A DNA stretch of 19,876 bases from Anaerolineales bacterium (GTDB taxonomy: Bacteria > Chloroflexota > Anaerolineae > Promineifilales > Promineifilaceae). The stretch spans positions 1-19,876 of the forward strand of contig JAGQGA010000026.1 in NCBI GenBank assembly GCA_020432595.1, written 5' to 3'. Each line of letters opens with the position of its first letter. The stretch's first letter is position 1. This document shows, in pieces, positions 905 through 17,944 of the stretch. Under the pieces are notes generated by a model. That model was not told where the DNA came from. It made no database searches and saw nothing but the letters and a program-made list of their open reading frames with translations. The position numbers and the translations under genes are program-made.

Positions 905-955
905 TAACAATTGCTGGAGCGCAAACGCCCCATAACGTCATTCCTTACCACGAAG

Positions 956-3900
956 CTAAATGTGAATATGCTGTTGCAGCAACAACCCGACTTGGTTAAT
1001 GTAAGGCTCTCGCTCCATTTCGCCGTGATCACATGGCAGATGATGGACAATAATTGGATTTTCACAGACAGCCTCCCATCTCGCAACGACCGGGTCAGGA
1101 TCGGGCGGCGTTAGCTGAGTCGCACGGAACAAAATTAACTGTCCTGCATATTTGGCTTCAAGCGTATAGGTCGCTAAACATTGGTACATTGCTTGAAAGA
1201 ATCGCGTTCGCTGTTTAATGTAGATAACACCATCCTCTCCCGACATAAAGCTATGCTTGTCAAATAGGTCAAAAATTGCTTCCCAAAGCTCCGACTCAGG
1301 TAGTTGTTTGAATTGTGTTGTCAGTGCCTGTCCTATTTCTTTATTCAGCAGGGGTCTTGCTGTCAGTACTGTTCTTATCACCCACTCCTGATAGGTAAGC
1401 GTTAAAGACGGGCGAGTACCATCTACTCTGATGGGGGGAACTGTATCCATGATGGCAAGCACCGGAACATGTCTCCCCGCTTGTTGGAGGGCAATAGCCA
1501 GTGGAAATGCCAAGACACCGCCGGCTGAATGCCCAATGATATGCTGCCTGCTGATCTGCGCCGCAGTCAGGGGAGCGATGAAATAAGTTAGAAAGTCGGA
1601 CATCTGGCTCGGCAAAGCAACATCTTCGGGGATGACCAAGTCGCGGTACTGAAGACCGTAGACAGGCAGGCCATTTTTGGCCGCTGCGGCAAAAGCTAAG
1701 AAACTCGTCACGCTCCCCCCACGCCCTGGCAAGCAGAGTAGCGGCGTTTCCGTCGCCATCCCTTCTCGTAGCGAAACAATTTCGACATTTGTCTTGCTTT
1801 GGGTTGCGAAAAGCCCATCCTCCCCACCGCCCTTAGACATCACATAATGGCAGAATGTCCGAATTGTGGGGTAGTGGAGCAGATCGGCCAGCGGCAACCC
1901 CGCGCCCACAATCTTGCGCAGATGATACTGTACCTTGATCAGCAGCAGCGAATGACCGCCAATCTCGAAAAAGCTGTCGTCAATTCCCACTTGCTCAAGC
2001 TGTAGCTCCCGCTGCCAAATCTCAGCGACGCGCTGTTCGAGCCAACTGCGCGGTGCGATATACGCATTGGTCGCGTTTCCATAGCCACTTGGTGCAGGCA
2101 ATGCGCGGCGGTCTAGCTTTCCGCTTGGGGTCAGCGGCATTTCTGTTAGGGTGACAAATGCTGCTGGAATCATGTAATCGGGGAGGGTTTGGAGAGATGA
2201 AGGCTCAAGAATGAAGGATGAGTCGGCTGGGACGTAATAGGCGACGAGTTGCTTATCCCCCTCTGTGTCTTCGCGGGCAATGACGACCGCCTCGCGCACG
2301 CCCTCTTGTGACAGCAGGGCGTTTTCTATCTCGCCTAGCTCAATGCGGAAGCCGCGTATTTTAACTTGGAAGTCGGTTCGGCCGATATACTCAATGTTCC
2401 CATCTGGCAACCAGCGGCACAAATCGCCTGTTTTGTACAATCGGCCGAATTCCGAATGCTCAATAAACCGCTCGGCTGTGAGTTCTGGGCGATCTAAGTA
2501 CCCTCGCGCCAGAATGCCACCCATGTGCAGTTCGCCAGCGATGCCAATTGGCACAATCTGTTGCTCCTTATCGAGCAAGAACACCCGCCGATTGGGAAGC
2601 GGTTGGCCGATTGGCAAGTTGGTCGAGCTTGCCAAATTGTGGGAGGTTAACTCATAGCGTGTGGATGTAACGACCGCCTCCGTTGGGCCGTAGACGTTAA
2701 CCAAGCGCATGGCGTTATCGGGAAGCTGCTGCCACTGCTCAACCAGTTTAGGATCAATTTTTTCATTGCCAACAAGCATCAGTCGCGTCGGCAACGTTGC
2801 CACCATGGAGGGGTTGTCTAGCCAATAGGCAATGACCTGTTGACAGTAGCCAAGCGGCAGATCACAAATCGTCACGCCGTGTTTTCTAACCTGCTGATCG
2901 AATTGCTCAATCGTCCACAAATCAGAGTGGCGCAAGAGTAGCTTTGCCCCGCCGCAGAGTGCGCTAAACAATTGCTCGACCGATACGTCAAAGCTGATCG
3001 AGGCGAATAGCAACGAACAATCGTCTGAGTGAATCCCATAAAGGTCTATGACCGATTGAATATGTTGGCTAATGGCCGTGTGTGAAACAAGAACGCCTTT
3101 TGGCTGTCCCGTCGAGCCAGACGTGTAGATGCAGTAGGCTAAATTTTGGGGCGAAACGGCCGTTTGTGGGTTGTCCCGCGCTGTCTCTAATTTAATAGTG
3201 TCCACATTAACGCGCCGAAAAGCCTCTCCGTCAACAGACAGATGCGATTGCGTCAAGACAATCTTCGCCCCACTATCCGCCAGCATGTATACAATCCGCT
3301 CATCGGGATAGGTCGGGTCAAGCGGCACATACGCTCCGCCCGCCTTCAACACTGACAGCAACGCCACCATCATCTCCACTGACCGCTCCATCAACAATGC
3401 CACCAGCGTATCTGGCTGCACACCCAACTCGATTAGATGATGCGCTAGTTGATTGGCCTGTGCGTTTAGCTCGGCGTAGGTCAGTTGCGCCTCTTCAAAC
3501 AGGAGCGCAATGGCGTCTGGGGTCTTGGCAACCTGCTGTTCAAACAGGGCTTGTATCGTCTGTGGTTCGCCGTAGTTTACGGCCGTATCGTTCCACCCAT
3601 GGACAATCTGCCAACGTTCCTGCGCCGTCAAAAAATCGAGTTTTTGGATAGGGATATTTGGCGCGGTTACAATCGCTTCTAGCAACACCGCAAAATGTTG
3701 CGTCATGCGCTCTATCGTCGCCTCACTAAACAAATCGGCGTTGTATTTGAGCGCACCGACTAACGTGCCGCCAACGCCGTCTTCCATGTCGAGTGTCAAA
3801 TCGACAATCGTCGGCTGTTGGGGCATGTGATAGGGCTCAAGCAGCAATCCGCCCCACTCAACGCGGCAAGCCGAATAGTCGGTATCAGGCGCAGCAACCA

Positions 3901-5029
3901 TAAACTCTTGCAACCCTTCAGATGAAAGCGCGTTCATAAAGTTGAACCCAACCTGCATCAACGGAGAGTAGCTGGGATCGCGTTCAAAATCTGCGTGCCG
4001 AATGATTTCACTGAATGGGTAAGCCTGGTGCATTTGCGCCTTAAATGAGGCGCGTTTAACCTCGTCTAGCCATTCAATAAACGTGAGATTTGGCGTTAAA
4101 TCAGAGCGCATGGGCAAAAAGTTGGAAAAATGACCAACAATGTCCATAAATCCCGATTTAAGACGCCCTGCTGCGGGCGTGCCAACGATGATTTCAGGCT
4201 GACCGGTGTAGCGATAGAGGAGCAGTTGAAACGCTCCCAGCAGCGTCATGTAGAGGGTGCTGCCTGCTTCCTGAGTGAGCTGCTTGAGGGCAGCAGTGCG
4301 TTCGGCCGAAATCCGAAAGTAATTTTCTCTCCCATTAAATGTCTGCACAGGGGGGCGGGGATAATCTGTTGGCAGAACGAGCGGCTGCACGCACCCTAAC
4401 TCTTTTTGCCACCACGCGCCCAACTTGCTTCCCCGCTTTGCCAGCATCTCTGTTTCCCACGCCACATAGTCGGCGTAAGTCGCCTGTAAAGGGGGCAAAT
4501 TGGGTGTTAGGCCAGCACAGTAGGCAGGATAAAGCGTTTTGATCTCCCGCATCATCAACCGCACCATTGACCACCCATCAGAGACAATGAGTGGCACGGT
4601 CACCAGCAAAAGATGGCGCTGTGCGGCTTGGGTAAAGAGACGCACCCGTATGGAACACTCCTTTTCAAGATCAAACGGTTCATTGTGAGCGGCGACCACG
4701 GCCGCAAACAGTTGCGCTTCGTTGTAAACGGCCGTATCTATCTGCATAAAGTTGACCGTGCGCTGCACATGAACGGTTTGACTCAGTCCGCCTGCTGCAT
4801 CCATCTCTATCGTCGTTCGGAGAGCGTCGTGGCGATCAACAAACGCCTGAAATGTCTGACGCAAAGCCGCCACATTGACGGATGACATCACGCGCATAAC
4901 GACTGCACCGCTATACATGGCTGCCGTCGCTGGGTCTTGGCAAAGAGACCACAACGCTTGTTGCCCAATAGAAAGCGGATAAGTTGTGATGTCAGTCGAC
5001 TCTGATTTAGAAATAGGTATAGTTAGCAT
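956..5029 (-). CDS. NRPS, C*-A-T-TE, with a condensation domain lacking the HH motif
   Basis: This is a 1357-residue single-module NRPS. The C domain (about 16-450) has recognisable flanking motifs (YPLSIGQQALWSL, DRHDALRT, ATYADYVAW, IVGTPAAGR), but HHxxxDG reads PLIVSDG at 146-152, so both histidines are lost. The A domain (about 480-980) has YTSGSTGQPKG at about 635, D681 for the substrate amino group, YKTGDL and SGKLDRRALP. Its ten-residue code reads DVEDMVVVTK, to which I can assign no substrate with confidence. The T domain has IGGHSL with Ser1027. The type I thioesterase (about 1090-1357) has GHSAGG with Ser1168, Asp1195 and His1335, a complete triad. Unlike the two upstream NRPSs it has no TubC docking domain; it is preceded by a free carrier protein gene 87 nt upstream. 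An in-frame TAG four codons upstream fixes the ATG; no Shine-Dalgarno is visible. Confidence 0.95.
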   Translation of the reverse strand: MLTIPISKSESTDITTYPLSIGQQALWSLCQDPATAAMYSGAVVMRVMSSVNVAALRQTFQAFVDRHDALRTTIEMDAAGGLSQTVHVQRTVNFMQIDTAVYNEAQLFAAVVAAHNEPFDLEKECSIRVRLFTQAAQRHLLLVTVPLIVSDGWSMVRLMMREIKTLYPAYCAGLTPNLPPLQATYADYVAWETEMLAKRGSKLGAWWQKELGCVQPLVLPTDYPRPPVQTFNGRENYFRISAERTAALKQLTQEAGSTLYMTLLGAFQLLLYRYTGQPEIIVGTPAAGRLKSGFMDIVGHFSNFLPMRSDLTPNLTFIEWLDEVKRASFKAQMHQAYPFSEIIRHADFERDPSYSPLMQVGFNFMNALSSEGLQEFMVAAPDTDYSACRVEWGGLLLEPYHMPQQPTIVDLTLDMEDGVGGTLVGALKYNADLFSEATIERMTQHFAVLLEAIVTAPNIPIQKLDFLTAQERWQIVHGWNDTAVNYGEPQTIQALFEQQVAKTPDAIALLFEEAQLTYAELNAQANQLAHHLIELGVQPDTLVALLMERSVEMMVALLSVLKAGGAYVPLDPTYPDERIVYMLADSGAKIVLTQSHLSVDGEAFRRVNVDTIKLETARDNPQTAVSPQNLAYCIYTSGSTGQPKGVLVSHTAISQHIQSVIDLYGIHSDDCSLLFASISFDVSVEQLFSALCGGAKLLLRHSDLWTIEQFDQQVRKHGVTICDLPLGYCQQVIAYWLDNPSMVATLPTRLMLVGNEKIDPKLVEQWQQLPDNAMRLVNVYGPTEAVVTSTRYELTSHNLASSTNLPIGQPLPNRRVFLLDKEQQIVPIGIAGELHMGGILARGYLDRPELTAERFIEHSEFGRLYKTGDLCRWLPDGNIEYIGRTDFQVKIRGFRIELGEIENALLSQEGVREAVVIAREDTEGDKQLVAYYVPADSSFILEPSSLQTLPDYMIPAAFVTLTEMPLTPSGKLDRRALPAPSGYGNATNAYIAPRSWLEQRVAEIWQRELQLEQVGIDDSFFEIGGHSLLLIKVQYHLRKIVGAGLPLADLLHYPTIRTFCHYVMSKGGGEDGLFATQSKTNVEIVSLREGMATETPLLCLPGRGGSVTSFLAFAAAAKNGLPVYGLQYRDLVIPEDVALPSQMSDFLTYFIAPLTAAQISRQHIIGHSAGGVLAFPLAIALQQAGRHVPVLAIMDTVPPIRVDGTRPSLTLTYQEWVIRTVLTARPLLNKEIGQALTTQFKQLPESELWEAIFDLFDKHSFMSGEDGVIYIKQRTRFFQAMYQCLATYTLEAKYAGQLILFRATQLTPPDPDPVVARWEAVCENPIIVHHLPCDHGEMEREPYINQVGLLLQQHIHI
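2321..2450 (-). repeat. Near-identical A-domain segment, copy 1
   Basis: These 130 nt, in the A-domain C-terminal subdomain of the C*-A-T-TE gene, match 15181-15310 at 113 of 130 positions by hand count. The first 80 nt match at 73 of 80, including an exact run of 21. The encoded segment spans YKTGDL to GFRIELGEIEN. Confidence 0.8.
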
Positions 5030-5116
5030 AGAAAATCTAAGCTAGCACGGGCAAACTTGCCACGCGCCATCGTTTTTTCAAAACACTTGATAGAAAAGCA
5101 CCTCATGCCGCCCATC
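5030..5116 (-). other. Gap between carrier protein and second NRPS
   Basis: These 87 nt contain no reading frame I support, no convincing promoter and no terminator. Read on the minus strand it contains GGCAAGTTTGCC, a weak inverted repeat without a following T-run. It leads into the NRPS ATG without a Shine-Dalgarno. Confidence 0.4.
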
Positions 5117-5398
5117 TCATATATGGGCAAGTTTTGTGTTCATAACCAGCGTCGCAACTGCATTGATCGTCTCAAAGTTCTCCAGCACAATTGCATCTGG
5201 CTCAACCTCTACGTCAAATGCCTCTTCCATAAACGCCATCAGGCGAAAAAGCCCCATTGAATCAACAATTCCCTGCTCAATCAGCTTTGTGTCGTTATCA
5301 ATTGCTGCGTTTTCCACGTCATAGAGAAGTTGTTTCGTGATAAATTGATTGATGCGTGCTGCAACTTCGTCATGTGAGTCATGCCCATTGTTATTCAT
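5117..5398 (-). CDS. Free-standing acyl/peptidyl carrier protein
   Basis: This is a 93-residue protein of the size and helical layout of a discrete carrier protein. The phosphopantetheine site is IVDSMGL with Ser47, and the acidic helix II and III region (MEEAFDVEVEPDAI) follows. D-S-M/L-G/E sites of this kind are typical of DltC-like and PltL-like stand-alone carriers rather than the GGHSL/GGDSI sites of the modular T domains here. A Shine-Dalgarno CAGGAA lies 6 nt before the ATG. It sits between the halogenase-like gene (30 nt gap) and the C*-A-T-TE gene (87 nt gap). In known clusters such carriers hold an aminoacyl or acyl substrate while a flavin halogenase or oxidase acts on it. That role is inference here: no dedicated stand-alone A domain or proline dehydrogenase is in the window to load it. 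Confidence 0.9.
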   Translation of the reverse strand: MNNNGHDSHDEVAARINQFITKQLLYDVENAAIDNDTKLIEQGIVDSMGLFRLMAFMEEAFDVEVEPDAIVLENFETINAVATLVMNTKLAHI

Positions 5399-5428
5399 TG
5401 TTATTCCTGTGTAAAAAGTGTCTAATTG

Positions 5429-6745
5429 TTAGATTGCCAATCTTTCTAAAACGCGATACCGTCTCTTGCGGAACTGCGCCTCATCGAGATTGTCATCTTC
5501 GATTAGATGGAAAAAGTTGTCGGCCCGCGTCGTCATCTGCGACACCGTCGCCATCAACTCTTGCTCCGTTTTGCTTTCAAATGTTACCATCGCCCGTGCC
5601 AGTTCGCTGGCATGATTTCCAGAGCGATAGCCAGGCAACGCCAGAGAACGAGCCACCTCCAAACGCCCTGTCAGTTGCTTGCTGTAAAGGGTTTGATAGC
5701 TCTCCGTTCGTTCGGGTTTTTTGAAACAGCGATCAATACTCCACGCTGCTGTGTAGGCGGAGTACATGCCGATGATAACCCCCGCTGAGAAAATCGGATC
5801 GATAAACCCTGCTGCATCCCCCACGAGGAAGTAACCGGGGCCAGCCAACTGTGTTGACCGATAGGAGTAATCTTGCACACCCGCCACACTCTTTTCATGG
5901 TAGGTTGCTTCCGCTAACAGCTCTTTGAGATAGGGTATTTCCGCACACTTCTTTAAGAAATAGCTTTCCCACGTCTCCCCATTTGTCTTGGCCGCTTTGA
6001 GCTGATCAACGGGCAAAATAAGACCCACGCTCGTTTTATCGCGGAGCGGAATGTGCCACACCCAGCCCCAGTCGCCGCTGTCGGGTATCCACGTCACAAA
6101 TGTGGTTGTCGGAATTTCACTGAGACGCTCAAAGGGATAGGCTCGCCCATCCGTTGAAATATACTTTGAATTGTCAAAGTACCCCCACAGACTGGCAAAC
6201 CGAAAGCCTTCATCAAGCACGCGCGTTCCCATTTGTTTAGCAATGACAGAACTCTGCCCACTGGCATCAACGACAAAGCGACAGGTGATAGCACCTGTTG
6301 TGCGCTCCGCCAGACGGCGATAGTGAACGATAGGCTGTGTTTCATTGCTAAAGTCAACGTTTGTAACCGCCACTTCTTCACAAACGGTTGCGCCTGTCTC
6401 GGCCGCATGGGTCAGCAAAATATGATCAAAGCGATCCCGCTCGACATGCAAACTGGGGCGCGTATGCCCGAAATCTTTGAAACCCACTTGGGAGATCATA
6501 TCTTTCCACACGACAGTGCCACCGGCCTTTTTCGTAAAGCCTTCTGCTTCAATTTTGGCACTCACCCCGGCCTCATCACAGTAACGCCACACGTGTGGCA
6601 GTAAGCTTTCGCCGACATGGGGGCGTGGGTGTTTTGCCCGTTCAAACAAGACGACATCGTATCCTTTCTGAGTGAGATACGTTGCTGTTAGGCTGCCTGA
6701 TGGCCCACCACCGATAACCACCACATCACATAACGTTTTATCCAT
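5429..6745 (-). CDS. FAD-dependent halogenase-like monooxygenase
   Basis: This 438-residue flavoprotein belongs to the tryptophan-halogenase/PrnC-like superfamily. The N-terminal FAD-binding Rossmann motif is GGGPSG (12-17), and the second FAD contact is LVGDAAGFIDP (about 307-317). Halogenase hallmarks are present: GF..K.G (F70, K73, G75), where the Lys is the usual hypohalite-relaying residue; WVWHIP (W228, W230, I232); and F314-x-x-P317-x-x-S320-x-G322, a signature proposed for flavin halogenases. The expected reaction is halide-, FADH2- and O2-dependent halogenation of an electron-rich ring such as phenol, pyrrole or indole. The substrate may be carrier-bound, as in PltA/PltL systems, because a free carrier protein gene follows 30 nt downstream. 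No flavin reductase gene is visible. The start overlaps the preceding hydrolase gene by 8 nt with a good GGAGA Shine-Dalgarno. A non-halogenating monooxygenase of the same fold is the alternative. Confidence 0.85.
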   Translation of the reverse strand: MDKTLCDVVVIGGGPSGSLTATYLTQKGYDVVLFERAKHPRPHVGESLLPHVWRYCDEAGVSAKIEAEGFTKKAGGTVVWKDMISQVGFKDFGHTRPSLHVERDRFDHILLTHAAETGATVCEEVAVTNVDFSNETQPIVHYRRLAERTTGAITCRFVVDASGQSSVIAKQMGTRVLDEGFRFASLWGYFDNSKYISTDGRAYPFERLSEIPTTTFVTWIPDSGDWGWVWHIPLRDKTSVGLILPVDQLKAAKTNGETWESYFLKKCAEIPYLKELLAEATYHEKSVAGVQDYSYRSTQLAGPGYFLVGDAAGFIDPIFSAGVIIGMYSAYTAAWSIDRCFKKPERTESYQTLYSKQLTGRLEVARSLALPGYRSGNHASELARAMVTFESKTEQELMATVSQMTTRADNFFHLIEDDNLDEAQFRKRRYRVLERLAI

Positions 6746-7391
6746 TGTTGTTCTCCGTTAAAATGTCTTCGATGTATTGCGTTAGTAGTTGATTGAAAAT
6801 TGCACTTTTTTCTTGATGGGGAACATGCCCCGCGCCAGCAATGATCTGTACAGCCCCACGCCAAAGCGTCGGCATTTCTAATGCCTCCAGCTGAGCAAGG
6901 TTGACAAACGGTTCATTCTCTCCCTGAAACACCGCGAGGGGTTGTGTCATCGCACTTATCATCTGGATTGCTCTTTTCTCTAGTCTAAAAAAGTTACCCT
7001 CTTTAAAAATGGGCAACGTGCCGCAAAAAGCAAAGCCGGCCGCCTGCGGCAACTGTGTGCTGGTGTAAATAGCAACTGTCCCGCCATAGCTAGACCCATA
7101 AAAAACGGCGTGGGGAACGTTGAGTTTTTCGGCCGTTTGCGCCACAAGCTCTGCGTGCTGTTGCGGTGCTATCTTGTGCTGCAAATCGTGAGCAACCGAC
7201 TCGCCGCCGTGTCCTGGCAGGTCAATGGCGATGACGTGGAAGCGTTCGCCAAACTCCCCCTCTAGCTGTGGGCGAAAGGTCAATGCGTCCCCACCATTAC
7301 CGTGTAGCAGAACGACGGGATAGCCGCGCCCCGCGCTCTCACAGTAGACGACGGTATCCTCACCAATTTGCAGCGACTGCTTGATCATCAT
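6738..7391 (-). CDS. Small alpha/beta-hydrolase, possibly a type II thioesterase or peptide-tailoring hydrolase
   Basis: This is a 217-residue alpha/beta-hydrolase. It has an oxyanion-type HGNGG (30-34), a nucleophile elbow GSSYGG with Ser101, and a C-terminal His189 in GAGHVPHQE. The acid position after strand 6/7 reads GENEP, with Glu160 where most members have Asp. Family members usually run 250-280 residues. Here the lid between strand 6 and the acid loop is cut to about 30 residues, so the active site should be open, as needed for a bulky or carrier-bound substrate. It may hydrolyse a product or free a tailored residue from a carrier, but no substrate can be read from the sequence. It begins 12 nt after the radical-SAM stop and its end overlaps the halogenase start by 8 nt, so the two are translationally coupled. 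TTG at 7400 is an alternative start; neither has a strong Shine-Dalgarno. Confidence 0.88.
   Translation of the reverse strand: MMIKQSLQIGEDTVVYCESAGRGYPVVLLHGNGGDALTFRPQLEGEFGERFHVIAIDLPGHGGESVAHDLQHKIAPQQHAELVAQTAEKLNVPHAVFYGSSYGGTVAIYTSTQLPQAAGFAFCGTLPIFKEGNFFRLEKRAIQMISAMTQPLAVFQGENEPFVNLAQLEALEMPTLWRGAVQIIAGAGHVPHQEKSAIFNQLLTQYIEDILTENNNG
6752..6756 (-). promoter_or_regulatory. Shine-Dalgarno of the halogenase gene, inside the hydrolase gene
   Basis: GGAGA lies 6 nt upstream of the ATG at 6745 and within the last codons of the hydrolase gene (ACG GAG AAC). It supports that ATG and, with the 8-nt gene overlap, suggests coupled translation of the two proteins. Confidence 0.75.
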
Positions 7392-7403
7392 CTTGCCCAA
7401 AAA

Positions 7404-9029
7404 TCAGAACTCCAAAACATCCCCAAAAGAAACGTCTTGGAATAGCTCAACCAGCCGTCGTTCTTGATCCGTGCAATCAATGGCAATGTCATCTAGGCTG
7501 GGAATAAACACTTCTTGAGCAATGCGACCAAAACGCTTGATCTGCTCCACTGTGAACCCTTGAGCAACCAAATAGGCAATTCCCCACATGCTAAATTCAA
7601 AGCTGGGGATCGGGATCGAATTTTGAATGGTCTTATACATATAAATTGACCAATCGGCCGCTTCCCGCCAACTCATTGTATTATGATGCCAATTATATCC
7701 CCCGCCTTTAAGCCCGATCTCATCGGCTTGGGCATGGATTGGCGTGTGGCGATTATGATAATAAAGCTGAACGGTATAAAAGGTTGGGGCAGTATCCTCG
7801 ATAAAAGCAATCGTGTTTTTGACCGTCTCTTCTGTCTCGCCGGGAAAGCCACAGATTAGAGACGTGTACGTGGCAATGCCGCGCTCATGCAGACCCTGCA
7901 TCCCCCACTTATATCTCTCTGGTTTTGCCATCTTGTTCATCTTCTTGAGCATCTCGGCATCACCTGATTCTACACCCAAAAATACGCCCGTGCAGCCGCT
8001 CTCTGCCATCAAATCTAACGCATGTTCATCCAGATTGGAGCAACGGAGAAAGGAAACCCACTTAAAGCCATACTGCTTGTCAATCATTAGCTGCATAATC
8101 TTCTTGAAGCGGGGGAGCGGCACGTTGAATGTATCATCTGTGAAAACAATCATTTCCGTACCTGCTTTATGAAGGGCATCAAATTCACGCTCAATCGTTT
8201 CCAGGCTGCTCAACACATGTGCCCCTGCTTGCGTTGGATAGTTGCAAAATGAGCAGGCAAAAGGGCAACTCCGCGCTGTTCGCATATAGGTCATTGGTGT
8301 CAACAAATGTGACGCAAAGGTTTCCCAATGAATGCTTGTGTGATCCATGTCGTTTTGCTCTGGTTCACGTGTGCTGCGGTACCATTGCTGGTGCTGTTCA
8401 TCAAAGTAGATCAAGTTTGGCACGTCACGCAGGCTGTCCTGATTCTTTAGCTGGCAAAGTGCCCTACTAAGCGTGGTTTCACCCTGCGAATCATTGACAT
8501 AAATATCCGCCCCAACTTCATGGAAGATGTAGTTTTGTGCTGCCTCGTCGAGGTCTGAGCAAACATTGTAGATATGTGGCCCGCCGACGATGATTTTGGT
8601 TTCTGGGTTGTGCTCACGAATAAATTTGACCACTTCGATAATTGGCATATGGTCAACATAAAATGTGGTTGTAATGGCAACGGCAAGCGGGGATTGAGCC
8701 AAGAGCAGGCTTAGCTGCTCTTTGTCGCGGTTAAAAAAGTTGACAACCTCAACCGTGAACGCCCGGGACTGCAAATAGCTTTGCAGGTAGCAGGCTCCCA
8801 TTGACTGTGTGTTAAAGACGTTTAGCTCAGGGTTATAGCCCGTCGCCTTTTCAACAGCATGGTTGAGCAAATCCATGTAGAGCATTCGCCTGCCGTTAAA
8901 AAGAAGCGAATTGGCCTTTACTTCATGGGCGTTCCCTGTGTACATCCCTTTTTGATGGGCTGAAAACTGACTGTAATCAACGGCGTTATAGCCTATAATG
9001 ATGCAGTCTATTGTGTCTTGTAATGGCAT
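7404..9029 (-). CDS. Radical-SAM enzyme with N-terminal B12-binding-like domain, resembling PhpK-type methyltransferases
   Basis: This is a 541-residue protein. Residues about 5-185 form a Rossmann-like domain as in cobalamin-binding radical-SAM enzymes (IIVGGPHIYN at 147-155, EVGADIYV), but I do not see a DxHxxG cobalamin motif. The radical-SAM core begins near 245 with the 4Fe-4S motif C255-PFA-C259-SF-C262, followed by a TDDTFN strand, FLGVESGD and CGFPGETEE. The opening (CIIIGYNAVDYSQF, then KANSLLFNG) matches, from memory, proteins annotated as PhpK, the P-methyltransferase of phosphinothricin-type peptides. Related proteins occur in NRPS clusters that make no phosphonate, so methylation of an unactivated carbon is the safer expectation. 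It starts the tailoring block 77 nt after the thioesterase-ending NRPS. A TTG at 9041 would add four residues, but GGAG fits the ATG at 9029. Confidence 0.88.
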   Translation of the reverse strand: MPLQDTIDCIIIGYNAVDYSQFSAHQKGMYTGNAHEVKANSLLFNGRRMLYMDLLNHAVEKATGYNPELNVFNTQSMGACYLQSYLQSRAFTVEVVNFFNRDKEQLSLLLAQSPLAVAITTTFYVDHMPIIEVVKFIREHNPETKIIVGGPHIYNVCSDLDEAAQNYIFHEVGADIYVNDSQGETTLSRALCQLKNQDSLRDVPNLIYFDEQHQQWYRSTREPEQNDMDHTSIHWETFASHLLTPMTYMRTARSCPFACSFCNYPTQAGAHVLSSLETIEREFDALHKAGTEMIVFTDDTFNVPLPRFKKIMQLMIDKQYGFKWVSFLRCSNLDEHALDLMAESGCTGVFLGVESGDAEMLKKMNKMAKPERYKWGMQGLHERGIATYTSLICGFPGETEETVKNTIAFIEDTAPTFYTVQLYYHNRHTPIHAQADEIGLKGGGYNWHHNTMSWREAADWSIYMYKTIQNSIPIPSFEFSMWGIAYLVAQGFTVEQIKRFGRIAQEVFIPSLDDIAIDCTDQERRLVELFQDVSFGDVLEF

Positions 9030-9033
9030 GATG

Positions 9034-9039
9034 CTCTCC
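9034..9039 (-). promoter_or_regulatory. Shine-Dalgarno that decides the radical-SAM start
   Basis: GGAGAG precedes the ATG at 9029 by 4 nt (6 nt from its GGAG core). It overlaps the first codons of the longer TTG-started frame (TTG GAG AGC), so the ATG is preferred over the TTG at 9041. Confidence 0.75.
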
Positions 9040-9065
9040 AATTATTGTTGCTAAAAATCCGACAA

Positions 9066-9095
9066 ATATTATTAAATTGCCTATATTTGGGTAAA
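9066..9095 (-). promoter_or_regulatory. Possible internal promoter before the tailoring block
   Basis: The 77-nt gap between the thioesterase-ending NRPS and the radical-SAM gene is strikingly AT-rich against its surroundings. It holds TTTACC (9090-9095) and TAATAT (9066-9071) separated by 18 nt, a weak sigma-70-like pair. It could let the tailoring genes and the second NRPS be transcribed separately. AT-rich gaps throw up such pairs by chance, so this is only a candidate. Confidence 0.25.
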
Positions 9096-9106
9096 AACAA
9101 ACTCAC

Positions 9107-12100
9107 CTAACGCTTTTCGAGCAAGGCGTAAGCTGGTTGCAACTGTTCCTCAAGCGCGGTTGCCAGTTTTTCAACGTGTTCGGGGTTCAGCAGTGTATGA
9201 TGTGTGCCTGGCACGGTCACATGTTCTACGGTATCGGATACGAGTGTTTGCCAGCGTTCGATGCCTTTAACGGCCGTTTTCGACCCCTCAGCCGCATAGA
9301 CCACAATCGAGCCGTCGTATGGCTTAAGCTGATACGCATGGAAGATTTCCATGTGGTTGAAATAGGTGTGGAAGATGCGCTCAACTTGGGCTGGCTCAAA
9401 GGGAAAGGTATACCCTTCCGCTGCGAGCAAACGGCACAATGCCGCAATCGGGGTCTCATTGTGCTGTTCCAGTGCCTGCCGCCCCAGCGCGACTAGCTGT
9501 TTGTAAGCAACGGCACGGTTAAGACCCAAGCTATCCGTAAAATGGGCAAGCAGGTATGCACTCACCGTTCCGTTTGGATTAGGCGCGTTGCTGTCTGGAT
9601 ATTCGTCCAAAATACCCAACAGGGACACGTTCTCGCCGTTGGCCTGAAGCTGTTGGGCAATCTCATAAGCCACACGGCCACCAAACGACCAGCCTAAGAG
9701 ATTGTAAGGCCCTGCTGGCTGTATCTTTTTCATCGCCCGAATCGTATCCGCCGCTAGGGCTTCAATCGAACCGAACGGCGGTAGCTCGTCATAGATGCCA
9801 CGCGCTTGCAGGGCATAGATCGGCTGTTTGCGGCTCAAATAGGGGATTAAATTCCCAAATTGGCTGATTGTTCCCGTGATGGGATAGAAGCAGAAGAGTG
9901 GTGGGCGCGCCCCTTCTCCTTGCAGTGTCACAAACCAAGAGTCGCTATCCGCCTGTTCGCGGCGAATGGTGGCCGTGTCGTCGTTCACGGCTTCAACAAT
10001 CAATGAACGCAGCCGCTGTGAAAAGTTTTCTAGCAGCCATTCGGCCGTTTCACGTCGTAATTGGGGGCTAACAGTCCAGGCAATTCGTAGCTGACCTTTC
10101 GCAACGGATGCGTTACTGTCTAGCACGGTGTCACGTTGGAAGTTGGGCGATATGGCCTGCCCCGCAAACTCTGGCGCCAATTCAAAGAAATGATGATCAA
10201 ACCGATCTACCTGACCGAAATAATTATAAATCACGGGTGCGGTCGGAAGGTTGGCAAAGGCTGCCCGAATGTTGTCATCTGGATGCAAATAGCTTAGTGC
10301 GCCAAAGCTGATGCCGCCATCGGTCACGCGCTGCATTTGCTGCAACGTGTTTTGGATGCGCGAAACGGCCGTTCCCGCCACCCGTGGCATCGTGACAGGA
10401 TAGGCAGACGTGAACCACCCCACCGTGCGATTAAGGTTCACCGTATCAAAAAGCTGCTGCCGACCATGACTCTCAAATTTCACCCGCAAGCCATCGTTAC
10501 CCGACCAATCGGCCAGCGTTTCGGTGAGGGCGGTGAGGACAACTGCGTCGAGCGTTACATCATAACGGTCTGGCAAAGTACGCAGGAGGTGGTCGGTCTC
10601 GGCTTGAGACAAAGCGAACTGTAGACGGTGGCTTGTCCCCAGCGTGTTCACCGCCTGTGGCTCATCGAGCGGCAGCGGCAACGCTGTACACTCACTCAAC
10701 CAATCGTTTAGCTTGGCATCAAAATGCCCTTGTGCCGTCGCTGTCTGTAAGGTCTCGCCCCAATCACGATAGCTGCTGGTTTTGGGAGCCAGTTGTCCGC
10801 CACTCAACAGCGTGATCAAATCTTCGAGCAAAATGCGCCACGAAACGCCATCTACCGCCAGGTGATGCACAACGAGCAGGAGCCGCTCTTCCGTACCCCC
10901 ATGAAAATAGACCACCCGCAGCAAATCGCCTGTACAAGGATTGAGACTCACCTGTGTCTTGGCACAAATCGCTTTGATATGAGTCGTTCGTTCGGCAACA
11001 GCGACCGCACGCAGATCAACCAGTTCAAGCGGTATCGCCTCCGTTGGCTCAAGGTATGTTTGCTGCCAGCCCGACTCGCTTTGCGTGTATTGGAAGCGTA
11101 ACGCATCGTGATGATGCAGTAGTTTGCTAACGGCCGTTTCTAGCATTGCCGGTTGCAGCGGCTTTTTCAGCCGCAATAGTGCCGACTGATTAAAGTGATG
11201 GAGATCGGGCTGTTTGGCATCAAAGTACCACTGCTCAATGGGCAGGAGCGGGGCGTTGCCACGCTGTGGTTCTTGTGAGGCAACGACTTGTGAGGTGGCG
11301 TCGTCACAACGCTGTTCGATCACGTTAGCCAAGCTGGCAATGGTCGGGTGCTGGAACAGCTCTTTTGTCGTCAGTTTATACCCCTGCTGCATCAGGCGGC
11401 CAACCACTTGGATACTGAGAATCGAATCGCCACCCATGCGGAAGAAGTTTTCGTGAATCCCCATCTCTGGAACATGCAGAACTTCGGTAAAGACCTGTGC
11501 CAACGCTGTTTCAAGCGGGTTGCGGGGGGCAACAAATTCATCCTGCGCACCAGCAAAATCTGGGGCGGGGAGTGCGCTGCGATTGAGTTTGCCGCTGACC
11601 GTAAGCGGCATCGCCTCAAGCTGCACAAAGGTCGCGGGAATCATGTAGTCGGGCAGATGTTGGCCTAGATAGTGCGCCAGCAGTTCGGCAATGGCTGGCG
11701 TCTCTTCGGCCAAGTCAGCGACAACGTAGGCCACCAACCGCTTGTCTCCGGGATTATCTTCGCGCAGCAAGACCACTGCCTCGCTGACGGCCGGATGTGC
11801 CAGCAGCGCATTCTCGATTTCACCCAGCTCGATTCGGAAACCGTGCAGCTTGACTTGGAAGTCGGCGCGGCCCATAAATTCGATATTGGGCGAGCCATCG
11901 GCGTTTGGTCGCCAGCGGCATAAGTCACCTGTCTTGTAGAGTCGGCCAAAACGAGGGTGCTCGATAAAGCGTTCGGCGGTTAAATTCGGCCGATTGCGAT
12001 AGCCACGCGCCACCCCTAACCCACCTGTATACAATTCGCCCGGAACACCGACGGGTGACAGCTCTAACGCATCATCCAAAATATAGACCTGCGTATTGGC

Positions 12101-14650
12101 AATCGGCACGCCAATCGGAACGGAACCCTGTACGCTGGCGGGATCGGTGAGCGGCGTTGTCGTGGTAAAGGTTGTGTTTTCAGTGGGGCCATAGCAGGCG
12201 ATGTACGTTGTTTGCGGGTACAGCGCCTCGATAGCCCGCCGCACGTGCTGGGTTGAAGTCACCTCACCCCCAACGAGAAGCTGCTTAATCGGCCGTAACC
12301 CGTCCAGATTGTAGTCAACCATTTGGTGGAACAGGGCGGTTGTCAGGAACATTGTCGAGATGTTGTGCTCCTTAATCACGTCCGCCAGCCGCTGCAAATC
12401 TATTTCAAGTTCGGGATAAAGGACGAGCGTTGCCCCGTTGCAAAGACTACCCCAAATCTCGAACGTCGCCGCATCAAACGAGGGGGAAGCCAGCTGCAAG
12501 AAGGTTTGTGAAGCATCAAGCTGGGCATAGTTTGTCTGTCTGACAAGCCGCTGCACGTTGTGGTGCAAAATCTCGATCCCTTTGGGCTGTCCCGTCGAAC
12601 CTGACGTGTACATGAGGTAGAGCAAGTCGTCACCCCCCACCGCAACAGCCAGATTTGTGTCTGGGTAGGTGCTTACATCAATGTTATGGATGTTCACGAG
12701 CGGCACCGTCGTAGGCAGATTTTCGCTTAGCTCATCTTCCGTCAGAATTAGCACCAGCCCCGTGTCATCGCTCATAAACGCCAAGCGTTCGGGCGGATAG
12801 GCTGGGTCAAGCGGCACGTAAGCCCCCCCAGCTTTGATGATTGCCAAGGTCGCTACGATCAGATCGAAGTCGCGTTTTAAACAGATGCCAACGGCCGTTC
12901 CTACGCCAACGCCAGCTTGCTGTAGGTGATGCGCTAGTTGATTGGAACGGCCGTTTAGCTCACGATAAGTCAGTTGCTCTTTGTCGAGAACCAGAGCAAC
13001 GGCATCGGGCGTGCGCTCCACCTGCGCTTCAAAAAGCGCGTGGATTGGCTGAGGCTCACCGAGATTTACGGCCGTTTTGTTCCATTCCTCAACGATCTGC
13101 TGTTCTTCAGTCGCTGTCAACATCGGCAAATTGAGAACAGGGTGATCAGGGTGGGCGATAATCGAGCGCAGCAACGCCGCATAATGCTCAACCATGCGAG
13201 CCATCGTTGATTCGTCAAACAGGTCCGTGTTATATTCAAAATACCCAAAAACGTCGTTGGGCGTGTGGCGCAGATCGAGGCTGAAATCGAATTTGGCAAC
13301 GGCGAGATCGGCCGATTTCGCCGTTACCTCAAGTCCCGGCCAATCAATCGAGCCGCCGCCGCCGCTTTGCATACTAAACGTCGTTTGAAAGAGCGGATTG
13401 TAGCTGGTGTTGCGCTCAATCTGTAGTGCGTTGAGCATCTGATCAAACGAGACATCTTGATGATCATGCGCAGCCAACATATCTTGACGTACCTGTTCAA
13501 GTAACCGTGTGAAGGGTGGGTTGCTGTCGAGCTGTGTACGCAGTGCCAATATGTTGACAAAGAAACCAATCACCCCCTCAATCTCTGTGCGGGTACGACC
13601 TGCCAGCCCCGTGCCAACGACAATATCCGTTTGCCCACTGTAACGGGCTAACAGGACATAGTACGCGGCAAGCATCACCATAAACATCGTCACCTGATGC
13701 TTTTGGGATAACTGTTCCAACCGATTTGTAATGTCCCTGTCTAGGGTAAACGGATAGATCGCCCCATGGTGACTTTGGACGGGTGGGCGCGGCCGATCTG
13801 TCGGCATTTCGAGCAAAGCCGGCGGAGGTGATGTACCTGCGAGTTTGCGCTTCCAAAAAGACAGGTGATGCTCCAGCCGCTCATCGCGCAAATATTGCCG
13901 TTGCCAACTGGCATAGTCAGCGTATTGAATTGGGAGACCACGCAGTGTCGGCGTTTCTCCGCCTGCATAAGCCCTATAAGCCTGTGCCAATTCGGAGCGG
14001 AAGATGCCTATAGACCACCCATCACTGATAATGTGGTGCATCGCAATCACTAACCAATGGTCGGTTGGCGAAATCTGCAATAGCTGCACGCGCAAAAGCG
14101 GCCCATTGCTCAAATCAAACGGTTCAGATGCAATGGTGTGGGTGTGCAGTTGGGCTTCCTCAGCATTTGCAACAGCGTGTATTGGTAGCCTAAAGGGGGA
14201 TGCGTCATGAACAACCTGGACAGGTTCGTTGCCTCGCAAACCAAACGTCGTGCGCAGCGTTTCATGACGCTCAATCAGACAGCCAACAGCCCGCTCCAAT
14301 GCAGCCACGTCCAGCTCTCCTGCAAAATGGAGGGTGGATTGCAGATTGTACGCTGTGCTATCTGGGTCAAGTTGGCTAAATGTCCAGAGCCGCTGTTGGG
14401 CAAAAGAGAGCGGCGCCGGGCCGCCCGCCTGCCGGGGCCGGATCACTTCGGAAACTGCTTGCGGAGCCTGCTGTAGCTGCGTCAGATAGTCAATAATCTC
14501 CGGCTTGTGGTTCTGAATCTGCTGACGCAGTGCCATTGGCAACCGCTTTGTCTGACCATGAAGCCGCAATTTGTCCCCAGCAACCGACATTGATATGCCG
14601 ATTTGATTTAACTCAATGAGTATTTTTTCTGTTACGAGTGCCTGCTGCAT
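9107..14650 (-). CDS. NRPS, TubC docking-C-A-T-E-TE, terminating module
   Basis: This is a 1847-residue NRPS. A TubC-type N-terminal docking domain (about 1-58, with GDKLRLHGQTKRL and LRQQIQNHKPEI) is followed by a C domain of the L-accepting type (LSFAQQRLW, HHIISDG at 205-211). The A domain (about 530-1020; YTSGSTGQPKG, D726) has code DAFFLGCTFK, which fits a branched aliphatic residue such as Ile or Val. The T domain ends GGDSI (Ser1076), the form expected before an E domain. The epimerisation domain (about 1105-1575) has HHLAVDG from 1262, ESHGR, RTVGWFTS and YNYFGQ. The thioesterase has GWSFGG (Ser1655), Asp in GILDEYP and His in GTHHTLLNP. It should add one residue, invert it to D and release the chain. 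The start lies 2 nt after the preceding stop with a strong Shine-Dalgarno. An E domain directly before a TE is uncommon. Confidence 0.96.
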   Translation of the reverse strand: MQQALVTEKILIELNQIGISMSVAGDKLRLHGQTKRLPMALRQQIQNHKPEIIDYLTQLQQAPQAVSEVIRPRQAGGPAPLSFAQQRLWTFSQLDPDSTAYNLQSTLHFAGELDVAALERAVGCLIERHETLRTTFGLRGNEPVQVVHDASPFRLPIHAVANAEEAQLHTHTIASEPFDLSNGPLLRVQLLQISPTDHWLVIAMHHIISDGWSIGIFRSELAQAYRAYAGGETPTLRGLPIQYADYASWQRQYLRDERLEHHLSFWKRKLAGTSPPPALLEMPTDRPRPPVQSHHGAIYPFTLDRDITNRLEQLSQKHQVTMFMVMLAAYYVLLARYSGQTDIVVGTGLAGRTRTEIEGVIGFFVNILALRTQLDSNPPFTRLLEQVRQDMLAAHDHQDVSFDQMLNALQIERNTSYNPLFQTTFSMQSGGGGSIDWPGLEVTAKSADLAVAKFDFSLDLRHTPNDVFGYFEYNTDLFDESTMARMVEHYAALLRSIIAHPDHPVLNLPMLTATEEQQIVEEWNKTAVNLGEPQPIHALFEAQVERTPDAVALVLDKEQLTYRELNGRSNQLAHHLQQAGVGVGTAVGICLKRDFDLIVATLAIIKAGGAYVPLDPAYPPERLAFMSDDTGLVLILTEDELSENLPTTVPLVNIHNIDVSTYPDTNLAVAVGGDDLLYLMYTSGSTGQPKGIEILHHNVQRLVRQTNYAQLDASQTFLQLASPSFDAATFEIWGSLCNGATLVLYPELEIDLQRLADVIKEHNISTMFLTTALFHQMVDYNLDGLRPIKQLLVGGEVTSTQHVRRAIEALYPQTTYIACYGPTENTTFTTTTPLTDPASVQGSVPIGVPIANTQVYILDDALELSPVGVPGELYTGGLGVARGYRNRPNLTAERFIEHPRFGRLYKTGDLCRWRPNADGSPNIEFMGRADFQVKLHGFRIELGEIENALLAHPAVSEAVVLLREDNPGDKRLVAYVVADLAEETPAIAELLAHYLGQHLPDYMIPATFVQLEAMPLTVSGKLNRSALPAPDFAGAQDEFVAPRNPLETALAQVFTEVLHVPEMGIHENFFRMGGDSILSIQVVGRLMQQGYKLTTKELFQHPTIASLANVIEQRCDDATSQVVASQEPQRGNAPLLPIEQWYFDAKQPDLHHFNQSALLRLKKPLQPAMLETAVSKLLHHHDALRFQYTQSESGWQQTYLEPTEAIPLELVDLRAVAVAERTTHIKAICAKTQVSLNPCTGDLLRVVYFHGGTEERLLLVVHHLAVDGVSWRILLEDLITLLSGGQLAPKTSSYRDWGETLQTATAQGHFDAKLNDWLSECTALPLPLDEPQAVNTLGTSHRLQFALSQAETDHLLRTLPDRYDVTLDAVVLTALTETLADWSGNDGLRVKFESHGRQQLFDTVNLNRTVGWFTSAYPVTMPRVAGTAVSRIQNTLQQMQRVTDGGISFGALSYLHPDDNIRAAFANLPTAPVIYNYFGQVDRFDHHFFELAPEFAGQAISPNFQRDTVLDSNASVAKGQLRIAWTVSPQLRRETAEWLLENFSQRLRSLIVEAVNDDTATIRREQADSDSWFVTLQGEGARPPLFCFYPITGTISQFGNLIPYLSRKQPIYALQARGIYDELPPFGSIEALAADTIRAMKKIQPAGPYNLLGWSFGGRVAYEIAQQLQANGENVSLLGILDEYPDSNAPNPNGTVSAYLLAHFTDSLGLNRAVAYKQLVALGRQALEQHNETPIAALCRLLAAEGYTFPFEPAQVERIFHTYFNHMEIFHAYQLKPYDGSIVVYAAEGSKTAVKGIERWQTLVSDTVEHVTVPGTHHTLLNPEHVEKLATALEEQLQPAYALLEKR

Positions 14651-14652
14651 AA

Positions 14653-17600
14653 CTAAATCTCCTCAAACGCCTCATCTACGCTTTGTGAATTGGCCTGTAG
14701 CATCGCTGTGAAGCTGGCTAAAGTTTCCAGCGTCCGATATTGAAAGATTGATGCCATCGGAATGTTCACCATCATTTGGGCTCGAATACGCGAGATAACC
14801 TGAGCCGCCAAAAGTGAGTGACCACCTAGCACGAAAAAGTCGTCACACACGCCCACCTGCTCTACCCGCAACACGTCTCGCCAAATAGCCGCGATTTGTT
14901 GTTCGGTTTCTGTGCGCGGGGCTACAAATTCAGCTTGGGCATCAGCATAAACAGGGGCTGGTAACGCTTGGCGGTTCAACTTGCCGTTGGGTGTTAGCGG
15001 GAAGCTATCCAGTAGCACAAATGCCGAGGGCAGCATGTACTCTGGCAGACGTTGCAATAGCTGTCGGCGCAGTAAGTCAATCTCGGCATCGCCAACAAAA
15101 TAGGCAACCAGCCACTTGTCCTCGTTTTCTTCTCGTACCACAACGGCCGTTTGCTGTACGCCGTCTTGTGCTATCAGCACGTTTTCTATCTCGCCTAGCT
15201 CGATGCGGAAGCCGCGTATCTTGACTTGGAAGTCAGTTCGGCCGATATACTCAACATTGCCATCAGGTAGCCAGCGGCACAGGTCGCCTGTTTTGTAGAG
15301 CCGTCCAAATTTTGGATGGATGATGAAGCGAACGGCCGTTAATTCAGGCCGATTGAGATAGCCTCGTGCCAACTGCGCCCCACCAATATACAGTTCACCC
15401 ACAACGCCGATTGGCACAGGCTGCAAACCGTCATTCAGGATGTAAATTTGCGTGTTGGCGATGGGACGGCCGATTTTGATCCATTCATCATCATCCTCTG
15501 GCGCAACCGTGTGAACCACGCAACCCACCGTTGCCTCAGTCGGTCCGTATTCGTTAATAAGGCGCGTTTCGGGCGCAAGCTGTCGCCATGGCGCAACAAT
15601 CGACTCGTGCAGCGCCTCCCCGCCGATAATCAAACGGTTCGTGCGCCCTGCAAATTGGTCTGATTCAAGCTGATGGTTGATTAACTGTAGATGTGCGGGA
15701 GTCAGCTTGATAAAGCTCAGGTCTGACAGTTGGTCAATGCGATCCAACAGCACATTAACTGTGTCGCTCTCTGGCAGAATTGTCAACGAGTTGCCTGCCA
15801 GCAGCGGACTCCAAATGCTGGTCACGGTTAGGTCGAAGGCCAGCGGGGAATGAAGAATTGAGCCTGAACCTTGATCAGGGCCATACGTTGCCAGCGACCA
15901 CTGCAAATAATTGAAGACCGCCCGATGCTCAATACCAACCCCTTTAGGGCGACCTGTTGAGCCCGATGTGTAGATGACGTAAGCGAGCGAATCGGCCGAT
16001 TGGAAACGCTGCGGATTGCCGACCGATGATTCCTCTGCCTCAAACTGATCGACCGCAATCAGATATTTGACGTCAACAGCCAAATCAAGGTGTGACTGTG
16101 TTAGAACAATCAATGCGGCACTGTCAGTCAGCATATATTGAATGCGCTCAGTCGGATAAGCTGGGTCAACTGGCACATACGCCCCACCCGCCTTCAACAC
16201 CGCCAGCAGGCTGACGACCATCTCAATCGACCGCTCCATCGCCACCGCTACAAGCGTGTCGGCTTGTACGCCTAAGCTAATCAGGTGATGAGCCACCTGA
16301 TTAGCACGGCGATTGAGTTGTGCATAATTCATATGTTGATTGCCATGAACGATAGCGGTCGCGTTCGGCATTTTGGCAGCCTGCTGCTCAAAAAGCGCAT
16401 GAATCGTCTGTGGTTCGCCAAAATCTACGGCCGTATCGTTCCATGTATGCACAAGCTGGTGGTATTCAGCGTCCGTGAGCATGGGCAGTTGCAGCACGGA
16501 TTGGTCAGGGTTTGACACAATGCCCATCAGGAGCTGCTGCCAGTGGGTGAGCATACGGGAGATCGTGTGGGCATCGTAACGCATTGTATCGTAGCTCAAT
16601 GCGAGCGTGGCTTTGCCTCCCGATGCACCCAGCATTGCAAATGCCACCAGCGGATATCCCGTGTCTCCGGGTTCGATCCGGTCGGAGCGCAGCTCAATGT
16701 TGTTGGCAGTGATCTTCGGGGTTTGGGGTGTGTTTTGGAACAGGAATAAACTGTGGAATAAGCGAGTTCCCGCCGGCACCTCACTCAGTTGTTGTACATC
16801 CATCAGCGGGGTATATTCGCGTTGTTGTAGTTCAACTTGGGTATGAGTCACTTGCTGGAGCAAAGCTGAACCCGTTAGCTCCGCATCCAGTTTCACTCGG
16901 AATGGCAAGGTGTTGATGAATAATCCAAGTATTGATTCAATCTCATTGATAGGCGCGGTACGGCCTGATGTTACCATGCCAAAGACCACATCAGATTCAC
17001 GAACATACCGTGCCAGTAATACAGCCCATGCTGCTTGAAACAAGATATTGACGGTTAGACCTTGTGTACGGGCAAAAGTCATGATTTGTTCGGTTTCTTC
17101 GGCCGAAAAAGAGCGCGTGCTGGTGATAAGCTTGCCTTGCTCTTGCGGCGATGTCGCCGCAGCAGGTAGCGGTGTGGCGGCGTAAAACTCACTTAGATAC
17201 GCTTGCCAAAATGGCTTATCGCCTGATTGCTGGCGCAGATATTGGATATAGGCCTGATAGGGTGCGGCGGGCGGCAGTTGTTGGCCTGCATAAACGCGCC
17301 GGACCTCTGACCAAAACAAATTAACAGACCAGCGATCCATCACGATATGGTGGAACGTAAAGAGCAAATCATGCCCCCCGTCGCGCTCAATCACTGTTAA
17401 ACGGCATAAGGGTGCTTGTGAAAGATCAAAATCAGTGTAGCGATCTTCTTCAACCAGCGCCGAGAGTTGGGATTGATGAGTATCTGGCGGCAGATCTCGC
17501 CAATCTAACACGGTGACAGGCAGGTGTGTATGTTCATAGACAACCTGTACCGCATCATTGCCTTCCTCGGCCAAAAACGCCGCTCTTAGGCTGTCGTGTC

Positions 17601-17943
17601 GGTTGATGACTGTTTGTATTGCTTGGATAAAGCGTGAAACGTCAAACGCAGCATCATCGAAATGGAACACGTTTTGTTCAATATATGTTCCCTGTTTGGG
17701 TGCAAGCTGGCTGTGAAAAAACATGCCCGACTGCATGGGGGAAAGAGCAAAGATTGTTTCGACGGCTTTCTGCTGTTCACTATTCAGCAGGTCACGAATG
17801 GTTGCGCTATTTGCCCTTATTTGGCTTCGCAGCTCATCGGTCAATCGTTTGTGCGTATCACGGACGCGCAGCTTTTCCCCGTCCATGTAGGGGTAAATGT
17901 CAAGCGACTTTAGGGAGTTAAGTAATTTAAGGGTTGTTAGCAT
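14653..17943 (-). CDS. NRPS, TubC docking-C(DCL)-A(Asn)-T
   Basis: This is a 1096-residue single-module NRPS with a TubC docking domain at about 1-55 (LNSLKSLDIYPYMDGEKLRV, then a helix). The C domain opens with LSPMQSGMFFHSQLAP, the form typical of domains that accept a D-configured donor, matching the E domain that ends the upstream protein. Its HHxxxDG reads HHIVMDR (198-204): both His and the Asp remain, but Gly is Arg. The A domain (YTSGSTGRPKG, D704, YKTGDL, NGKLNRQALP) has code DLTKIGEVGK, one conservative change from the classical Asn code DLTKLGEVGK. The T domain has LGGHSL (Ser1043). No E domain is present, so L-Asn should pass to the next protein. The C-terminus ends acidic (SVDEAFEEI), a likely docking tail. 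ATG at 17943 is chosen over one at 18000 because it sits 1 nt after the upstream stop, has GAAGAG upstream and starts at the docking domain. Confidence 0.95.
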   Translation of the reverse strand: MLTTLKLLNSLKSLDIYPYMDGEKLRVRDTHKRLTDELRSQIRANSATIRDLLNSEQQKAVETIFALSPMQSGMFFHSQLAPKQGTYIEQNVFHFDDAAFDVSRFIQAIQTVINRHDSLRAAFLAEEGNDAVQVVYEHTHLPVTVLDWRDLPPDTHQSQLSALVEEDRYTDFDLSQAPLCRLTVIERDGGHDLLFTFHHIVMDRWSVNLFWSEVRRVYAGQQLPPAAPYQAYIQYLRQQSGDKPFWQAYLSEFYAATPLPAAATSPQEQGKLITSTRSFSAEETEQIMTFARTQGLTVNILFQAAWAVLLARYVRESDVVFGMVTSGRTAPINEIESILGLFINTLPFRVKLDAELTGSALLQQVTHTQVELQQREYTPLMDVQQLSEVPAGTRLFHSLFLFQNTPQTPKITANNIELRSDRIEPGDTGYPLVAFAMLGASGGKATLALSYDTMRYDAHTISRMLTHWQQLLMGIVSNPDQSVLQLPMLTDAEYHQLVHTWNDTAVDFGEPQTIHALFEQQAAKMPNATAIVHGNQHMNYAQLNRRANQVAHHLISLGVQADTLVAVAMERSIEMVVSLLAVLKAGGAYVPVDPAYPTERIQYMLTDSAALIVLTQSHLDLAVDVKYLIAVDQFEAEESSVGNPQRFQSADSLAYVIYTSGSTGRPKGVGIEHRAVFNYLQWSLATYGPDQGSGSILHSPLAFDLTVTSIWSPLLAGNSLTILPESDTVNVLLDRIDQLSDLSFIKLTPAHLQLINHQLESDQFAGRTNRLIIGGEALHESIVAPWRQLAPETRLINEYGPTEATVGCVVHTVAPEDDDEWIKIGRPIANTQIYILNDGLQPVPIGVVGELYIGGAQLARGYLNRPELTAVRFIIHPKFGRLYKTGDLCRWLPDGNVEYIGRTDFQVKIRGFRIELGEIENVLIAQDGVQQTAVVVREENEDKWLVAYFVGDAEIDLLRRQLLQRLPEYMLPSAFVLLDSFPLTPNGKLNRQALPAPVYADAQAEFVAPRTETEQQIAAIWRDVLRVEQVGVCDDFFVLGGHSLLAAQVISRIRAQMMVNIPMASIFQYRTLETLASFTAMLQANSQSVDEAFEEI
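14658..14664 (-). promoter_or_regulatory. Shine-Dalgarno inside the docking-tail codons
   Basis: GAGGAGA lies 7 nt before the ATG at 14650 and is formed by the codons for the last residues (EEI) of the upstream NRPS. The same bases therefore encode its acidic tail and recruit ribosomes for its docking partner, with only 2 nt between stop and start. Confidence 0.75.
15181..15310 (-). repeat. Near-identical A-domain segment, copy 2
   Basis: This is the partner of 2321-2450, in the Asn-type A domain. The corresponding stretch of the third NRPS (around 11800-11950) is visibly more different, with an inserted PNADGSP stretch, so the likeness goes beyond general A-domain conservation. Confidence 0.8.
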
Positions 17944-17944
17944 A

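Follow-up and report, generated by a model that had tools for sequence, protein, structure and literature searches.

The 19,876-nucleotide stretch analysed here (the window; contig JAGQGA010000026.1 of an Anaerolineales bacterium, positions 1 to 19,876, forward strand) encodes a nonribosomal peptide synthetase (NRPS) protein whose N-terminal condensation (C) domain, of a type that ordinarily couples two amino acids, reads PLIVSDG in the place of HHxxxDG. With moderate confidence, this domain is regarded as an N-terminal C domain that was recently silenced or weakened. The protein (1357 aa; open reading frame (ORF) at 956..5029, minus strand, as are all features below) has the Pfam-supported layout C-A-T-TE: the C domain at residues 15-475 (3605..4987; Pfam Condensation, 287.1 bits), an adenylation (A) domain at residues 496-971 (2117..3544; PF00501 and PF13193), a thiolation (T) domain at residues 999-1063 (1841..2035; PF00550) and a thioesterase (TE) domain at residues 1096-1337 (1019..1744; PF00975).

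The altered motif

The motif lies at residues 146-152 (4574..4594; codons CCA CTC ATT GTC TCT GAT GGG), with the Leu codon of residue 147 at 4589-4591. The ORF translation and the codons confirmed the reading PLIVSDG given in a preliminary description of this DNA, and the Pfam match, the alignment and the structure model agreed with its statement that the Asp-Gly and the flanking C-domain motifs survive. The motif Asp (residue 151), the core Arg residues 71 and 289 and Asn 303 were all intact, and modelling of the structure, which that description had proposed, predicted a normal C-domain fold. By fold and profile the domain thus belongs to the NRPS condensation domains in general, and it lacks the second His of the catalytically canonical form.

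In an alignment of 284 condensation-family domains, including five E domains called by motif, the His pair was HH in 275, PH in two and PL in one, the window domain; the other readings were HQ (two), HN, HE, HP and YH (one each). Among the domains of other proteins, the second position was His in 228 of 233 and Leu in none. The window reading is unusual, because HH was found in 275 of the 284 domains and Leu in none of the 233, and the motif in the window is more than chance. The second His was also missing in five other domains of the 284, and its loss appears to be rare rather than unique to the window. When the same PL form was sought in homologues, as had been suggested, PL was found only in the window (1 of 284), but the two nearest homologues did share the Pro-first form PH.

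Close homologues and the probable order of the changes

Of 7997 candidates scored in a search with the C-domain region, 1660 matched, and the best 120 of these comprised the window protein itself, two close homologues and a remainder at no more than 41% identity. The homologues, P0003 (84% identical to the window over the C domain, 90% overall) and P0002 (79% and 69%), both have the motif PHIVSDG. Since both read PH, the Pro is not new in the window copy, and the first His had probably already become Pro in this group; a joint loss of both His residues was rejected because the Pro is common to all three proteins. The earlier claim that the catalytic HH has become PL therefore held for the second His, which is gone in the window copy only, but not for the Pro. 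The possibility had also been raised that HH is intact in close homologues and that this copy is simply mutated; half of this was found, in that both homologues retain the catalytic second His and the window alone lacks it, while their first His is Pro.

The difference between His and Leu at residue 147 is achievable by one base. The simplest history would be an older His-to-Pro change in the group, followed by a His-to-Leu change specific to the window, with His as the probable ancestral state at the second position. No relative was obtained from a scan of genome contigs with the C-domain alignment. In 396 Anaerolineae-class genomes, a draw from a larger group, no further orthologue was detected (six genomes matched at E 1e-85 or better, with a best listed identity of 41%), and of the 615 plasmid records with a match none reached 60% identity.

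In a tree, the window domain grouped with P0002 and P0003 (support 1.0), and this trio was placed inside a clade of 31 (support 0.968). The clade consisted of the window, 18 N-terminal domains (P0002 and P0003 included), two internal domains (P0008 and P0080, both with Pfam PF23024) and ten Anaerolineae-class loci (L074-L083), which carry no N-terminal or internal label. Two members, P0015 and P0018, read HQ, and the second His is thus absent in 3 of the 31. Of the features of an acyl-accepting or starter-type domain, the N-terminal place was seen together with the grouping in this clade, in a tree drawn without named subtype references and with a donor that is putative.

Other subtypes were also considered. 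A Cy domain was rejected, as the motif is PLIVSDG and DxxxxD is absent. An X domain was rejected on its place, which in the window is N-terminal and not between the last T domain and the TE domain, and no P450 match was found among the eight main ORFs. Interface domains recruit a beta-hydroxylase encoded nearby; no hydroxylase family was detected among the eight ORFs scanned, a flavin halogenase-like protein aside, and the cluster extends past the window. The domain does resemble the NcpA1 type in being an N-terminal C domain (beginning at residue 15) that has another residue, Leu 147, at the second His position. That type belongs to a first module that needs no donor; here the adjacent free carrier protein and halogenase suggest a donor, in a cluster that continues beyond the window.

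Loss of the second His and N-terminal position

Loss of the second His was more frequent in N-terminal than in internal C domains in two sets. In the first (232 domains from 117 listed proteins, with the window protein, P0001, as well as P0002 and P0003 left out), it was missing in 5 of 100 N-terminal and 0 of 132 internal domains (p 0.014). A start before residue 150 was taken as N-terminal, so that cut proteins could be mislabelled, and the set is biased towards window-like domains because its proteins come from the best 120 of the 1660 matches. The second set was drawn from 40 hand-picked stretches of six genomes rather than from every match, with genomes G802 and G938 not included. From its 156 domain rows 142 were aligned; nine without the motif columns were dropped, and 15 E domains and one domain of unknown start were set aside, leaving 117. 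Here the second His was missing in 6 of 41 N-terminal and 2 of 76 internal domains (p 0.021), or in 5 of 40 and 1 of 75 (p 0.019) when two Cy-like sequences with DxxxxD were removed; among the six N-terminal losses, G1128a matches only partially and has a poor motif. Three others are domains of the LPAxxxD/LPSxxxD type from Fischerella, which are 23-25% identical to the window domain. These N-terminal C-type domains of Fischerella sp. PCC 9431 read LPSLCAD, LPAICAD and LPAICSD in the place of HHxxxDG (L135, L137 and L138).

Probable recent silencing or weakening of the domain

According to the favoured reading, an ordinary N-terminal C domain would once have accepted the acyl group of the adjacent free carrier and condensed it with the amino acid bound to the protein's own T domain, followed by release through the TE domain. 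The first His of HHxxxDG would have become Pro already in the ancestor of the group, and the second, catalytic His would have become Leu afterwards in the window lineage. Condensation would then be absent or much weakened, and the protein would work as an A-T-TE unit whose C domain is silent. This agrees with one of the roles in the preliminary description, a module that only activates one amino acid and releases it through A-T-TE. The motif, the His of both relatives, the retained fold (by the model) and flanking motifs, the N-terminal place and the neighbours are observed; the part of the free carrier as donor, His as the ancestral state and the reduced activity of the C domain are inferred.

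Condensation is abolished by a His to Ala change in AmbB (PMC8968710) and by Ala or Val mutations in EntF, TycB1 and SrfA-A (as cited in PMC8968710), and the H2697Q form of the fuscachelin C3 domain retains about 1% activity (PMC8097023). Because these mutants lose activity, Leu at the second position is most likely, though not certainly, disabling. The first His can apparently vary, as the fungal C subtype is usually SHxxxDxx (PMC10212144), in agreement with the Pro of P0002 and P0003.

Several observations weigh against this reading. Mutation of the second His has little to moderate effect in VibH and VibF (as cited in PMC8968710), and silence of the window domain is therefore not certain. 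The N-terminal counts come from chosen samples and not from a random draw, and the ancestral His rests on two sequences, those of the two close homologues found. In a three-way comparison of the C domains, 30 residues were unique to the window, 25 to P0003 and 47 to P0002, with no excess in the window over P0003 (p 0.59). Nor were the window changes significantly harsher by a profile of the 233 domains (p 0.41 against the other two pooled; p 0.57 without H147L). Harsh changes numbered 11 among the 30 of the window and 13 among the 72 of P0003 and P0002 (p 0.07), which is suggestive at most, as the limit (log-odds below -3) was chosen after the scores were seen. With neither an excess of changes nor significantly harsher ones, no clear trace of prolonged decay is seen, and long neglect would explain the pattern less well than a recent loss, weak relaxation or an artefact.

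The C-domain part of the gene does appear to have had a livelier history than the remainder, since the window and P0003 are 83.5% identical in the C domain and 95-96% identical in the C-terminal part of the A domain, the T domain and the TE domain. The A core (window 2510-3109, residues 641-840) was 93% identical to that of P0003 but 33% identical to that of P0002, despite the 79% identity of the C domains of window and P0002. It has probably been swapped between close relatives, and the acceptor amino acid may therefore differ.

Alternative explanations

The C domain could still be catalytically useful without the second His, by positioning both carrier arms and their substrates. This would be in line with the intact Asp 151, Arg 71, Arg 289 and Asn 303 and the normal modelled structure, with the tolerance of VibH and VibF, and with a review in which the role of the second His is described as debated and its mutation as not always abolishing activity (PMC11546977). 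According to the same review, ORF18, which adds an L-beta-lysine oligopeptide to streptothrisamine, has a natural HQxxxDM C domain that works. ORF18 and the window thus share a natural C domain that lacks the second His, but ORF18 is active, its activity is lowered by a Gln to Ala change, and Gln can form a hydrogen bond whereas Leu cannot. Together with the near-total loss of activity in the fuscachelin, AmbB, EntF, TycB1 and SrfA-A mutants and the absence of Leu from this position in all 233 related domains, this makes retained usefulness rather unlikely. Still less probable is a non-catalytic role as a docking platform for the free carrier or the halogenase, comparable to that of the P450-docking X domains. 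X domains of glycopeptide synthetases likewise have a C fold with a changed HHxxxDG and recruit other enzymes (PMC8949500), but they are situated between the last T domain and the TE domain and serve P450s, neither of which was seen in the window. The structure search does not discriminate between C and X domains (the X domains 4tx2/4tx3 matched, and an ordinary C domain, 6p1j, scored higher at 41.4); moreover, both close relatives keep the His, and the Fischerella domains share only 23-25% identity with the window domain.

A small chance, much like that of a platform, is given to the Leu being a sequencing, assembly or strain-mixture artefact and the real gene reading PH. One base makes the difference, at a codon that is His in both relatives, and the window looks like uncultured material, as a 348-residue partial protein from an Anaerolineales metagenome-assembled genome (MAG) is 95% identical to the radical SAM protein of the window (57% covered). 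Against an artefact, the ORF is open across 1357 codons and the site lies outside a homopolymer; the cluster of the window protein holds six member sequences, which may or may not carry the Leu, on 11 contigs of up to 118,041 bases. There is, lastly, an outside chance that the domain is part-way from HH through PH to a Pro-first form without His (compare the Fischerella LPAxxxD), a path that other N-terminal C domains would have followed as well, with an amide-forming domain becoming a non-catalytic gate that positions the free halogenated carrier for the A-T-TE module.

A silenced or weakened C domain would most likely be of a kind already described and not a new sort of machine; the window adds to this kind, since the loss of His prefers N-terminal C domains and NcpA1 is a precedent in print. 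In the synthetase NcpA (nostocyclopeptide), the C domain of the first module reads HQIVGDL. It stands at the start of its line and has a different residue for the second His while the remainder is retained, which, in the words of its authors, "might suggest" inactivity (PMC7551626). In NcpA1 Gln takes the place of the second His and the first His is still present, whereas the window has Leu with the first position already Pro; the window protein, moreover, may not start its line, as a free carrier and a halogenase adjoin it. The natural pair of C domains, 84% identical with Leu in the window and His in P0003, is a usable test object, and the N-terminal excess of His loss, should it also hold for randomly sampled domains, could be of use to annotation tools for flagging silent C domains. 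Neither alters existing knowledge of the system.

Neighbouring genes and related clusters

All neighbours of 956-5029 share its strand, and successive ORFs either overlap or are separated by no more than 87 bases. Immediately upstream, across an 87-base gap, is the ORF of a free carrier protein (5117..5398, 93 aa; PP-binding, E 1.1e-6), as the preliminary description had placed it; its DSM stretch is presumably the phosphopantetheine site, and PltL and PigG are among the PDB proteins related to it in sequence. It is followed by a flavin halogenase-like protein (5429..6745, 438 aa; PDB relatives CmlS, ChlB4 and PltA), an alpha/beta hydrolase (6738..7400, 220 aa), a B12-binding radical SAM protein of the PhpK family (7404..9041), and three further NRPS proteins: TubC_N-C-A-T-E-TE (9107..14650, 1847 aa; E by motif VVHHLAVDGVSWR), C-A-T (14653..18000, 1115 aa) and an NRPS end, A(part)-T-E (17945..19861; E by motif VIHHLAVDGVSWR).

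The carrier and halogenase resemble the PltA/PltL cassettes, from which the window differs in having a C-A-T-TE protein alongside and, in the eight ORFs scanned, no free A domain. At the limits set, the halogenase was detected in 3 genomes out of 400 and in 1 out of 386. A halogenase 96% identical to that of the window (P0121) has a longest contig of 10,417 bases, as does P0003, which suggests that both may belong to one cluster. In a genome of the same phylum as Fischerella (G507; L072 9125-15362 and L073 1-2030), a halogenase 61% identical to that of the window adjoins a free carrier and a free A domain, and a C-T-TE protein without an A domain (HHIVYDA) lies two ORFs away; this cluster also holds two 340-aa ORFs. 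A Chloroflexi MAG (L002) has a halogenase of 41% identity followed by a C-T-TE protein with HHLITDA, and in another (L001) the halogenase comes after an A domain, a carrier and two further flavin proteins. The intact motifs of the two C-T-TE proteins point to ordinary condensation in such clusters, and a common plan may be that a free carrier is loaded, its cargo is modified there and passed to a C domain, and the product is released by a TE domain. The window set resembles these clusters, but its unit is a C-A-T-TE protein, in contrast to the separate A domain and the C-T-TE protein of G507. Of the docking, gating or halogenase-recruiting roles proposed earlier, none was singled out by anything found, and the halogenase relatives lie near C-T-TE proteins with intact motifs.

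The ORF 14653-18000 shares 56 bases with 17945-19861, and 5429-6745 shares eight with 6738-7400; such overlaps are expected of one operon. Both 956-5029 and 9107-14650 terminate in a thioesterase, the latter as E-TE, and this gene row therefore has two possible release points. The radical SAM protein scored 591.5 bits, just under the curated cut-off of 600 of the PhpK P-methyltransferase model, though it is encoded inside an NRPS cluster; 10 of its 120 listed relatives, proteins of 753-787 aa, additionally contain a condensation-family domain.
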